Below, piece after piece: positions 3,495-7,995 of a stretch of DNA of 47,707 bases. Source of the stretch: Planctomycetota bacterium. GTDB taxonomy: Bacteria > Planctomycetota > Planctomycetia > Planctomycetales > Planctomycetaceae. The stretch spans positions 1 to 47,707 of the forward strand of contig QWQG01000082.1 of NCBI GenBank assembly GCA_003670925.1, read 5' to 3'. A program made the position numbers and the translations under genes. Numbering within the stretch: the stretch's first letter is position 1; every line of letters starts with the position of its first letter. Below the pieces are notes generated by a model, which was not told the origin of the DNA, did not search any database, and saw nothing but the letters and a program-made list of their open reading frames with translations.

Positions 3495-3683
3495 TCAGTT
3501 TGGCTGGGCTGCTTTTTCTGCGTCGCGGCGAATCGCATCGTAGATCTCCTGACGATGAACCGCCACATCTCGTGGGGCATCAATTCCAATGCGAACCTTA
3601 TCACCCCTTACCTCAACGATCGTGATGCGAATATTGTCACCAATGATGATCGTTTCGTCGCTCTGCCGTGAAAGTACAAGCAT
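3495..3683 (-). CDS. csrA: Carbon storage regulator CsrA
   Basis: A 62-residue CsrA/RsmA homologue of normal length. CsrA is a homodimeric RNA-binding protein that recognises GGA motifs in mRNA leaders and controls translation and stability, typically of motility, attachment and carbon-storage genes. Conserved positions are visible: Leu4 and Arg6 (MLVLSR) in the first strand, and Val42 and Arg44 (VAVHRQEIY) at the RNA-binding face. The C-terminal helix is followed by a short Ala/Asp-rich tail. It has its own strong Shine-Dalgarno and its own terminator. No flagellar genes lie nearby in the window. Confidence 0.96.
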
Positions 3684-4127: not shown

Positions 4128-4817
4128 ATGTCCTTCCACATTCCACAATCAGGCAACGTTGGCGAATGGCTTCAGTTTTTCTCCAGTTTGTCGACCCCCG
4201 TGATTGCCATCGTTGCAATCCTACACCTGTTTTATTTTTGGTTTCTCCGCAACTGGTGTGCGCGTGACCTGCGGGTAATCGCAGAGACTCTGGATGACTA
4301 TACGCGTGGACTCAAGCACCGCAGTGTCCTAGAACGCGGCGTGGCCCTGACCACTCAGGTCGATGCCTTTGTACAGGATGTCAACGACGTGCTCTCGGAC
4401 AGTAGTCGCAGTGAAGATCGATCCGAATGCCTGCAGCGAATGCAGATTCTGGATGAAAAACGCCGCTATTTAGAATCTCTGTCCTTTGAAACCGCCACTC
4501 ACGTCGCTCGAACCATGATCGAAGCGTATCCCCTGAGCGGCGTGCTTGGAACGGTACTGGCAATCGGGTCGGCGTTGCAGACTGACGCATCCGGACAATC
4601 AGCTTCCACGGTGAATGTGGTGATGGAACGCTTCGGTGATTCTATCTGGTCAACATTCGCAGGTTTATTTGCTGCGATCGTCCTGATGTTTATCAACAGT
4701 ATTTTGGAAGTCCGTTTTAATCGACTGACCGACAGTCGTAGGCATGTGCGAGAGATGGTCGCCCGTGCTAAACGCGAACTTGGTCTGGCAGCTCAGCGGT
4801 CGGAGGGATCGTCCTGA
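4128..4817 (+). CDS. MotA/TolQ/ExbB-type proton channel protein
   Basis: A 229-residue inner-membrane protein with helices at about 22-41, 135-152 and 168-192, the three-helix layout of TolQ/ExbB. Family signatures are recognisable though diverged: 'YPLSGVLGTVLAIGSAL' matches the GLLGTV-type helix, and 'FGDSIWSTFAGLFAAIVLMF' matches the conserved third helix with Thr/Ala-Gly. A charged cytoplasmic segment (42-130) lies between helices 1 and 2. Such proteins form pentamers round a dimeric ExbD/TolR-type partner and use proton flow for mechanical work. The stop overlaps the next start (TGATG), so the two are translated together. No TonB, TolA or OmpA-type partner is encoded nearby. Confidence 0.8.
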   Translation: MSFHIPQSGNVGEWLQFFSSLSTPVIAIVAILHLFYFWFLRNWCARDLRVIAETLDDYTRGLKHRSVLERGVALTTQVDAFVQDVNDVLSDSSRSEDRSECLQRMQILDEKRRYLESLSFETATHVARTMIEAYPLSGVLGTVLAIGSALQTDASGQSASTVNVVMERFGDSIWSTFAGLFAAIVLMFINSILEVRFNRLTDSRRHVREMVARAKRELGLAAQRSEGSS

Positions 4818-5635
4818 TGTTGCCAAATCGTCGTCTCGCCCTGCAACTCACACCGCTTTTAGATTTACTACTCATCGTGATGTTCTCACAGTATATTGAG
4901 AATCGTGATCGTTCCGTTGCCGCGCAAGAGAGGCTCGTAACCCAAGAAAAACTGTGGGACACGCGGCTCGCTGGAGCAGAGGCCGCGATCGAACAACGCA
5001 GGCTGGAACTGGAAAAAAATGTCGCCGAACAGAAAGCTTTGTTAGCGGAACTGAACAAGACTTACGATGACAAATACAAAAGTATTATTAATCAACATCA
5101 TCAGATTGGTTCAATTCTCGCGGAATCACTCAACCTTCCCGCCAACGTTATAGCCGAAGTCCTTAAATTGCAGACAACAGGCTCGTCCGACGATGCTGGG
5201 CGACTCCAAGATGCCGCGGAACGACTGCAAAACCTTATGCAAGCCCGCGGTGCAGAAGTTTTTCGCTTCATGCTGCAAGTTGATGAAATGCAGAAACATG
5301 TAACCATCTGGGAAATCCACGTTCAGGAAAACGGTCAGGCATTGATCACCGACAGCCAACAGTCGTTTGTGACCGATTTTTCCAGTGACGCGGACCTCGC
5401 AACGCGACTCTTTGAATCCAGTAAATCGTTTACTGAGCCGAAAACACTGATCGTGGTCCTGCTAACGTGGAGCGACGCCCAAGCTGTCGCTCGCCGCCGG
5501 GCTGCTGATGCGATGCCATTGCTAATGGAACAACTTCGCAGAGACGCTAGCGGCACACGTTGGTATGATTTTTCAATCATTGGTTATCGCGCTCAAGGTT
5601 CACTGTTTAACTCAGCGAAACCAACAACGCCTTAA
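4817..5635 (+). CDS. ExbD-like stator protein with coiled coil
   Basis: A 272-residue protein starting with one transmembrane helix, 'LALQLTPLLDLLLIVMFSQYI' (cut: LALQLTPLLDLL, LIVMFSQYI). It resembles the ExbD/TolR N-terminus (TPLxD...), and Asp16 takes the place of the proton-carrying Asp. Residues ~33-90 are heptad-like and Glu/Gln/Lys rich, a predicted coiled coil. The rest (~95-272) is a periplasmic domain ending in SIIGYRAQGSLFNS, and I do not recognise an OmpA peptidoglycan-binding motif. Overlap with the upstream channel gene by one base supports a stoichiometric complex. It is longer than classical ExbD (~140 residues), so the force-transmitting part differs. Confidence 0.7.
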   Translation: MLPNRRLALQLTPLLDLLLIVMFSQYIENRDRSVAAQERLVTQEKLWDTRLAGAEAAIEQRRLELEKNVAEQKALLAELNKTYDDKYKSIINQHHQIGSILAESLNLPANVIAEVLKLQTTGSSDDAGRLQDAAERLQNLMQARGAEVFRFMLQVDEMQKHVTIWEIHVQENGQALITDSQQSFVTDFSSDADLATRLFESSKSFTEPKTLIVVLLTWSDAQAVARRRAADAMPLLMEQLRRDASGTRWYDFSIIGYRAQGSLFNSAKPTTP

Positions 5636-5671
5636 ACCCTTGTCCTGATAAGACAATCTTTTGCGGGGTCA

Positions 5672-6235
5672 ATGATGTCTAAACAAAATCAAAACATGCC
5701 ACTGCCAGTACGACTTGTGCGTGGAACATCACGCGCTGGAATCGGAGGCGGTGCGCTGCTGATCGGCCTCGCACTGTTCTTGTTGTTTCGCGGCTTCGGT
5801 CCAGGTGGTACGGGTTCAAGCGGTTCCGGTACCGGAGAGGACTCGAAGTCACCCAGCACTGCCAAGGCATCAGTGTCCGGGGACGAAACAAGCGAGACCA
5901 ATGACTCGAGCTTGGCCGCTCCTGACCCAATCATCGGCGGCCTTACAGAAGATGAACGCAAAGCGCTCTCCGGCAACATTCTCACCGTGCTGATTGATGA
6001 TTACCAGTACCTGATCGAATTGCCAGGCACTCCCGTCACTATCCTTCGCCCTGCTGAACTTTCGCGTATCGTCAAATTAGCGTCGCTGGCCAAAGGTGAC
6101 TCAAACGGGATCAAAGTCCGCGTCCTCATCCGCGAGAGCGCTCGGGCATCTGCCGAAAAACAACTTCAAGCCGACCTCGAACACAGCGGCATTCACCGCG
6201 ATGCGATCATGATCACCAGTGAGTTTGTGCCTTAG
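5672..6235 (+). CDS. Single-pass protein with ExbD/TolR-like C-terminal domain
   Basis: A 187-residue protein with a cytoplasmic N-terminus, a helix at ~23-42 (GIGGGALLIGLALFLLF), a Gly/Ser/Thr/Glu linker (~45-85) and a folded C-terminal domain (~95-187). That domain contains 'LTVLIDDYQYLIE' and 'VRVLIRESARASAEKQLQADLEHSGI', which resembles the beta-alpha-beta of ExbD/TolR periplasmic domains (...residue-pair strand, then a helix ending in a 'Gi' turn). Unlike ExbD its helix has no Asp. It lies 36 bp after the ExbD-like gene and probably is the third subunit of the same complex. ATGs at 5672 and 5675 are both possible. The assignment to the ExbD fold is inference. Confidence 0.6.
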   Translation: MMSKQNQNMPLPVRLVRGTSRAGIGGGALLIGLALFLLFRGFGPGGTGSSGSGTGEDSKSPSTAKASVSGDETSETNDSSLAAPDPIIGGLTEDERKALSGNILTVLIDDYQYLIELPGTPVTILRPAELSRIVKLASLAKGDSNGIKVRVLIRESARASAEKQLQADLEHSGIHRDAIMITSEFVP

Positions 6236-6543: not shown

Positions 6544-7995
6544 TCAATTGGCATCGCCTTCAGCTGGCTTGGCTTCACCTTCAGCTGGCTTGGCTTCACC
6601 TTCAGCTGGCTTGGCTTCGCCTTCAGCTGGCTTGGCTTCGCCTTCAGCTGGCTTGGCTTCGCCTTCAGCTGGCTTGGCTTCACCTTCAGCTGGCTTGGCT
6701 TCACCTTCAGCTGGCTTGAGGGCAGCTTCGTATTCCTGCAGAGCTGCTTCTAGTTGTTCTTTCATTTGCGGATCTGCAATTTCAATAGCTTTTTTCTGAT
6801 TTGCAATTGCCTCTTCAATATTGCCCTTCCTGAAATGAACGCGGCTGAGAGTATCTAAAATCGAAGCATCTTTCGATTCAGTGAGCTCTTCAGCACGTTT
6901 TGCCGAGGCTAGTGCGATGTCAAGATCTGGACCGGGACCTGAAACTGCGGTGGCCAGCACCCAAGCCAACTGGTTCAATTCAAGCGCGTTGTCATTTGAT
7001 TCCTGCACCATAATTTCAGCCGCTTTGTTCGCTTCGTCAAACATTTCACCTTTCAGTAGAAATTGAAAACGAGCCTGTTTCAATTGTGCATCCTCTGGAG
7101 ATTTCTCGATTAACTGATCAAGGAACACCAAGGCCGCTTTGAAGTCACCATTTTGGAGTGCCGCATTAATCTTCGGGCCAACCTCCTGCATTAATTCTTC
7201 GACTTCATGTGCCGCTAGAAATGTGGCTCGCGCCTTGGCCAGATCCCACGTACCATCGACAACTTCTTGGAGTGGTTTGTCGATCGAGGCGGGATGGCCG
7301 ATCCACTCCACCTTGCGGCTCTTTCCAACAATGAACGCGCAGGGGATTCCGTTTTGACCGGCAGCCTGCATGTACGCCTTATTCGTTTGGCCATTCTGGT
7401 CCAGAGCGATTGAGTATGTCAGAACTTCTGACCACAATTTGCCATCGCGGGAACTCTGTCCCATGAACTCGGACACGACTTCTTCTTCTTCCGCAGTCAC
7501 TCCGATGAACCTGACTTTGTCCCCGTACTCCGTCTGAAGGGCGGCAATGTGCGGCATACCTGCGAGACACGGGCCGCACCAAGTCGCCCAGAATTCAACA
7601 ACGTAAACCTTTTCGCCCGTGAATCCTTCGACTGCGTCTGCGTTAACCCACTTCGCAATAGAAATCGGGGGAGCGTCATCTCCAATTGTTAGTTCTGCCA
7701 CTGGACTCGGTTCATCGACAGGTGCTGGCTCAACAACAACTGCTGGCTCAAAGGGTGCTGGCTCAACAACAACTGCTGGCTCAACAACAGGTGCTGGCTC
7801 AACAACGACTGTTGGCTCAACAACGACTGTTGGCTCAACGAGATCCATGTCTGGGGGGATATCCGGTGTGACATTTGTCTCAGGAGCTGACTTTTCGGTA
7901 ATATTCACAGGAGGAGACGGCGTATTACCTTCGCCGCACCCGACCATAACACTGGACATTCCTGCCACTACAAAGGCAATCCGTAAATTACGCAT
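6544..7995 (-). CDS. TlpA-type thioredoxin lipoprotein with two repeat regions
   Basis: A 483-residue predicted lipoprotein. The signal ends in the lipobox VMVGC (Cys20). Residues ~54-96 are a Pro/Val repeat (VVVEPxxVVEPA...), probably an extended stalk. Residues ~104-250 are a redoxin/TlpA domain with the active site WCGPC at 139-143 (FWATWCGPCLAGMP). Residues ~270-425 are helical and TPR-like (for example KRAEELTESKDASILDTLS). The tail (~427-483) is eight copies of KPAEGEA. Family members reduce or isomerise disulfides outside the cytoplasm. The active-site pair is intact. Wall-spanning by the repeats is inference. It is flanked by its own terminator and by a 263-bp spacer (7996-8258) with nothing recognisable in it. 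Confidence 0.85.
   Translation of the reverse strand: MRNLRIAFVVAGMSSVMVGCGEGNTPSPPVNITEKSAPETNVTPDIPPDMDLVEPTVVVEPTVVVEPAPVVEPAVVVEPAPFEPAVVVEPAPVDEPSPVAELTIGDDAPPISIAKWVNADAVEGFTGEKVYVVEFWATWCGPCLAGMPHIAALQTEYGDKVRFIGVTAEEEEVVSEFMGQSSRDGKLWSEVLTYSIALDQNGQTNKAYMQAAGQNGIPCAFIVGKSRKVEWIGHPASIDKPLQEVVDGTWDLAKARATFLAAHEVEELMQEVGPKINAALQNGDFKAALVFLDQLIEKSPEDAQLKQARFQFLLKGEMFDEANKAAEIMVQESNDNALELNQLAWVLATAVSGPGPDLDIALASAKRAEELTESKDASILDTLSRVHFRKGNIEEAIANQKKAIEIADPQMKEQLEAALQEYEAALKPAEGEAKPAEGEAKPAEGEAKPAEGEAKPAEGEAKPAEGEAKPAEGEAKPAEGDAN
6550..6717 (-). repeat. Eight 21-bp tandem repeats (KPAEGEA)
   Basis: Exactly 8 x 21 bp encode the KPAEGEA heptapeptide at the C-terminus of the TlpA-type lipoprotein. 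Units are nearly identical at DNA level; the only variation among inner copies is a C/T transition in one codon (GCC versus ACC on the + strand), in the block pattern ACC-ACC-GCC-GCC-GCC-ACC-ACC. That suggests recent expansion by slippage. The period is divisible by three and free of stops, so every frame is open here and spurious reading frames appear on both strands. Confidence 0.93.
7708..7836 (-). repeat. Imperfect Pro-Val repeat region
   Basis: Degenerate 15-18 bp units (GGCTCAACAACGACTGTT and variants, + strand) encode the VVVEP/APVVEP stretch behind the lipid anchor of the TlpA-type protein. Unit length varies by whole codons and the frame is kept. Confidence 0.8.

Follow-up and report, generated by a model that had tools for sequence, protein, structure and literature searches.

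What kind of machine is encoded by a TolQ/ExbB-type channel gene whose neighbour supplies an ExbD-like Asp helix, while an ExbD/TolR-like domain resides on a third protein? In the usual description, such motors consist of a channel protein and a single further protein, on which the Asp helix and the periplasmic domain are both found. Three adjacent planctomycete genes, here named B, D and R, appear to depart from that description. They lie on the 47,707-nucleotide stretch of DNA analysed in the present study (the window), and we propose, with a probability of about one half, that they form a proton-driven motor with the 5:2 design of TolQR and ExbBD, in which R docks on D or on the envelope.

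The three genes follow each other closely on the plus strand (Table 1). A single base is common to the B stop codon TGA and the D start codon ATG, and 36 bp separate D from R. This arrangement of three adjacent genes, with a one-base overlap between B and D, had been given by a sequence-only reading of the window and is confirmed by the open reading frames and their coordinates. The same reading had placed the trio downstream of csrA. The identity of csrA (3495-3683) is confirmed, but the gene lies ~440 bp from the trio on the minus strand and points away from it; therefore, the trio does not lie downstream of csrA. In comparisons with the two nearest relatives, B has a dN/dS of 0.05-0.08, D one of 0.08-0.15 and R one of 0.06-0.12, and all three are thus real genes under purifying selection. 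Searches of Pfam, NCBIfam and PADLOC assign no family to D or R. Searching PDB sequences with profiles of the three proteins returns no useful relative, B alone giving a weak TolQ match, and promoter and terminator scans of the trio region are uninformative.

Table 1. Coordinates of the trio genes and of their principal features in the window.
Feature	Position	Strand	Evidence
Gene B: TolQ/ExbB-type channel protein, 229 aa	4128..4817	+	Pfam MotA_ExbB 44 bits (cut-off 22.9); weak NCBIfam tolQ match (1.3e-4)
B Thr142 codon, aligns with pore-ring TolQ Thr145	4551..4553	+	Alignment to 8odt; T in 26/26
B Asp171 codon, aligns with TolQ Glu173, proton entrance	4638..4640	+	Alignment; D/E in 24/26
B Thr176 codon, aligns with pore-ring TolQ Thr178	4653..4655	+	Alignment to 8odt; T in 26/26
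Gene D, 272 aa: ExbD-like helix with Asp, long helix and beta/alpha domain at the C terminus	4817..5635	+	
D residues 4-157: transmembrane helix that continues into long helices in the periplasm (predicted)	4826..5287	+	AlphaFold2, mean pLDDT 76
D Asp16 codon, equivalent of TolR/ExbD Asp23	4862..4864	+	Invariant, 31/31
D residues 162-257: C-terminal b-b-b-a-b-a-b domain, ~95 residues	5300..5587	+	AlphaFold2 prediction
Gene R: transmembrane helix, Gly/Ser-rich linker, ExbD/TolR-fold domain (predicted), 187 aa	5672..6235	+	
R residues 24-42: transmembrane helix, free of Asp and His	5741..5797	+	Homologues, hydrophobic segment: any D/E 4/28, His 2/28
R residues 104-186: predicted ExbD/TolR-fold domain	5981..6229	+	pLDDT about 90; VIA Z 8.4 to TolR 5by4 and 8.0 to ExbD 8vgc (a level that unrelated domains can approach); hhalign 91.5% to ExbD

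The channel protein is the most conventional member of the trio. B exceeds the curated Pfam cut-off for the MotA_ExbB domain and misses the NCBIfam tolQ equivalog cut-off (21.8 bits against 221). In an alignment to TolQ (8odt), which builds on a weak B-TolQ match, Thr142, Thr176 and Asp171 of B fall on TolQ Thr145, Thr178 and Glu173. In TolQ, the polar ring of Thr145 and Thr178 and the entrance residue Glu173 line the proposed proton path to TolR Asp23 (PMC12583513; PMC12215075). Both threonines are invariant among the 26 B sequences and also in a set that adds B from three further, very divergent loci, and the Asp171 position is acidic in all except two of the 26. Another residue of B, His33 (4224-4226), is located in the first membrane helix and is nearly invariant in the family. 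One locus (L002) that was first taken to hold a close B paralogue encodes an ordinary ExbB beside an ordinary ExbD.

The acceptor for protons passing along such a path would be located on D. Its N-terminal helix contains the sequence LTPLLD, and Asp16 is invariant in every D sequence compared. Whole-protein hhalign comparisons with ExbD are blurred by the long helix of D and the linker of R, and the results given here come from the separate domains. Against the ExbD helix, the D helix gives a 94% match and a score of 31.1, versus 8.3 +- 2.1 for column-shuffled profiles. These residues bear on the idea that the trio has lost proton conduction and is now a passive scaffold or sensor of the envelope, to which the lack of any known transducer or receptor linked to the trio would lend itself. 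Given that the whole set of proton-path residues is kept, with Thr142, Thr176 and Asp16 invariant and position 171 acidic in 24 of 26 sequences, we regard a non-conducting trio as highly improbable.

What follows the Asp helix in D? The sequence-only reading had expected a coiled coil and a periplasmic domain of ~180 residues. The AlphaFold2 model instead extends the helical part to residue ~157 and leaves a C-terminal domain of ~95 residues. For the D of the window, the heptad period of a coiled coil is weak, being matched by 18 of 300 shuffles; in long homologues it is very clear, with none of 300 shuffles attaining it, and a 3.5-residue period is sharp in the two longest D proteins. D ranges from 191 to 424 aa in length, and the variation lies mostly in the helical part. 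In the model, the helices and strands of the C-terminal domain succeed one another as in ExbD, and the hhalign match of the domain to ExbD is weak (5%; score 18.6 versus a null of 9.2 +- 1.9) and above all 60 shuffles. However, RNase H-like and ribosomal S11-like folds match this domain at least as well as TolR in structure searches, and an ExbD origin of the domain is therefore only faintly indicated. Pfam detects neither an ExbD nor an OmpA domain in D at E 10, and D is missing from the PF02472 list of its own genome. MotB/OmpA is not in the list of structural matches of D, an absence that carries no weight.

R combines a different membrane anchor with a more recognizable end domain. Its hydrophobic helix is Gly/Ala-rich and retains no TPxxD remnant, and neither an acidic residue nor a histidine is conserved there among the homologues. 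The linker that follows is disordered and Gly/Ser-rich, and it is short in some homologues. The periplasmic domain of R is confidently predicted and, by the model and the profiles, has the ExbD/TolR fold. The best six structural matches of the model are all TolR or ExbD, with VIA Z values from 8.4 to 6.4 compared with 6.1 for the next, unrelated match; unrelated domains can come close to a Z of about 8, although the top matches of R agree in family. Profile comparison with hhalign places 66 columns of the R domain in register with ExbD (score 36.4 versus a null of 9.1 +- 2.0), using an ExbD profile of 34 sequences from this and related genomes. On these structural and profile matches, therefore, R appears to be an ExbD-type domain on a different membrane anchor. 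A comparison of the D and R profiles reveals no similarity. The sequence-only reading had described B as a TolQ/ExbB-type channel, D as beginning with an ExbD-like TPLLD helix and R as an Asp-less helix with an ExbD/TolR-like C-terminal domain, and all three descriptions hold: the first by the MotA_ExbB match and both pore threonines, the second by the invariant Asp and the helix profile match and the third by the profile match and a structure prediction in which the resemblance to TolR and ExbD is evident.

Alternatively, R could be a force transducer that stands in for TolA or TonB, with its helix on the outside of the B pentamer, its linker crossing the periplasm and its end domain pulling an outer-membrane partner. 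B-D-R mirrors the order TolQ-TolR-TolA, R consists of the same three parts (helix, disordered linker and folded end domain), the whole genome (G000) is devoid of the TonB_C domain (PF03544), and published relatives include transducers with other end domains (PMC12204202). Against these points, the R helix lacks the Ser-His motif (SHLS), which is the site by which TolA and TonB bind the motor (PMC12215075), and a histidine of any kind is found in the helix of only two of 28 homologues. Furthermore, the end domain is ExbD-like rather than TonB-like by its predicted fold, Pfam finds no TolA/TonB C-terminal domain in R, and some homologues have a short linker. A transducer role of R is thus unlikely in our estimate.

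Are B, D and R a unit at all? Single-sequence searches detect D in 35 of 59 related genomes, among them 17 of the 18 that belong to the same genus, the exception being 61% complete. In a phylum-wide sample, D is present in 27 of 28 genomes of its own family and sporadic outside it, and the trio is kept in nearly every genome of that family; three family genera (G025, G026 and G035) are without both D and R. The relatives that carry a name are Planctomycetaceae and Planctomycetales MAGs. No D was found on plasmids. The B-D-R order extends well beyond this genome to six families of the phylum, including another family of the class (L061 and L062) and four other families (L147, L148, L149 and L150); the R profile identifies R in L061 and L148, R of the remaining four loci is assigned from its layout and position, and in the distant genomes G063 and G164, where the R profile matched nothing, R is called from layout and position only. 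The genes flanking the trio are not conserved in the family. A sugar nucleotidyltransferase gene and a gene for an EF-hand protein directly precede B in two genomes of another family (L062:4118-6803) and are missing elsewhere. Two entries titled Candidatus Kuenenia stuttgartiensis (L036 and L040) carry a trio highly similar to that of Planctomycetaceae MAGs, and their titles look like those of mislabelled MAGs.

D and R also occur together irrespective of their position. When 58 genomes were searched with two profiles, D and R were both present in the same 29 genomes and both absent from the other 29, and 11 further D-bearing genomes all have R. R is consequently found in 40 of 40 genomes with D and in 0 of 29 without D, so that the two agree in all 69 genomes compared, counts that are not independent, given the common ancestry of the genomes and the rows that about half of them contributed to the two profiles. 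R adjoins D in 22 of the 40 genomes and is located elsewhere in 18, and R therefore need not be co-transcribed with B and D. A loss of R from the genomes in which it does not stand beside D is ruled out, as R sits elsewhere in each of them. Detached R has no conserved neighbours in the eight cases read; in one genome (G372, L174), R is about 14 kb from B-D on the other strand. Although the independence of these counts is overstated, the shared losses and the repeated unlinking point to a functional tie between D and R, and since the two co-occur even where R has moved, we consider the trio to be one functional unit. The unlinked R of 18 genomes might be read as a sign that B, D and R are unrelated genes and neighbours by chance. 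Such a coincidence has a negligible probability and is already contradicted by the agreement of D and R in all 69 genomes and by the recurrence of the same order in several families whose other neighbours differ.

The obligatory co-occurrence would also fit an arrangement in which the D and R helices pair as a heterodimer inside the B pentamer, with an Asp on one of the two central helices. The ExbD-type end domain kept by R agrees with this arrangement, as do the two different TolR-like genes that have been described beside one TolQ in the same bacterial group (PMC12204202). However, the R helix is Gly/Ala-rich and without a TPxxD remnant, no sign of pairing is seen in the sequence, and the ordinary ExbD pairs of the same genome, as far as they were read, keep the Asp on both members. 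We therefore view a mixed D-R pore pair as quite improbable. The genome contains 11 MotA/ExbB domains and 10 ExbD domains, and eight of the latter belong to four paired loci. On contigs C257, C235, C85 and C186, two ExbD domains are close together, with a TPMID Asp motif on each where both were read. The trio differs from these paired loci by the missing Asp helix of one member and the long helix of the other.

The reading in which R docks on D or on the envelope shares a proton-driven B-D motor with both the transducer and the pore-pair alternatives and can be put as follows. Five B subunits would form the channel, and two D helices would stand inside it. Asp16 on each D helix would accept protons while facing the ring of Thr142 and Thr176, and, as protons flow, the D helices would rotate or be displaced relative to B. 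The long periplasmic helix of D would carry this motion from the membrane to the C-terminal domain of D. R would be an obligatory ExbD/TolR-related partner that has its own membrane helix and a flexible linker and that has kept the ExbD-fold domain without the proton-carrying helix. The R domain would most likely dock on the periplasmic part of D or on the envelope and provide the load-bearing contact, as the ExbD domain does in ordinary motors. The sequence-only reading had likewise suggested a proton-driven machine with stator functions split between two proteins; the channel residues, the Asp helix, the predicted fold of R and the conserved gene order support its parts, and a division of these functions between D and R inside one complex would be a further step.

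How does the trio compare with known proton-driven systems? It resembles Tol-Pal in its gene order, in the pore threonines and acidic entrance residue of B, in the Asp helix on the second protein and in a third protein made of a helix, a linker and an end domain. Unlike Tol-Pal, it has a long helix and a different end domain in D and a TolR fold in place of the TolA domain, without Ser-His, in R, and no TolB or Pal gene stands beside it. The Ton system of ExbB, ExbD and TonB shares the channel type, the Asp helix and the presence of an ExbD fold, whereas in the trio the fold and the Asp helix are on two proteins and TonB_C is lacking genome-wide. MotAB and ZorAB likewise place a periplasmic helix and an end domain after the Asp helix; however, D has no OmpA-type domain, and the ZorA and ZorB profiles of PADLOC match none of the trio proteins at E 10. 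The closest parallels come from planctomycetes and their relatives, in which TolQ occurs with two different TolR genes and with TPR and vWA genes (PMC12204202). Such loci, from the same bacterial group, likewise have a single TolQ-like protein and two TolR-related partners that differ from each other, but they include a TPR gene and a vWA transducer. In the trio, the Asp helix is missing from R and the helix of D is long, and across genomes neither a vWA nor a TPR gene is linked to the trio. TolQ with Asp-helix vWA (TPH-vWA) proteins, described in the same group (PMC12204202), resembles the trio by the fusion of an Asp helix to a non-ExbD periplasmic part and differs from it in that Pfam finds no vWA domain in D or R.

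The sequence-only reading had stated that no described system has such a layout. The layout itself was indeed not found, and no published system with this division of labour came to light in a literature short of most subscription papers; the main text of an essential-gene paper (PMC10632474) does not name the trio genes. However, the claim must be narrowed, because TolQ with two TolR genes is described (PMC12204202) and four paired-ExbD loci are present in the same genome. From these known relatives and the absence of a published match, we therefore place the trio as a variant of the TolQR/ExbBD kind. More tentatively, the trio could belong to a proton-motor class of its own, with the Asp helix and the ExbD-fold domain placed on two obligatory proteins and a long helical shaft added, that serves an envelope process peculiar to planctomycetes without a recognizable TonB.

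If the Asp helix and the domain are indeed separate yet obligatory together, the coupling steps of such motors could be studied one protein at a time. The trio also points to an envelope process in a group in which the standard transducers are missing or unrecognized; in the genome of the window, a known transducer seems missing or unrecognizable despite the many MotA/ExbB and ExbD domains. Beyond R, at 6544-7995 on the minus strand, the window contains a gene for a thioredoxin-like protein with TPR, with VVEPA-type repeats close to the beginning and an extended series of KPAEGEA repeats at the end.
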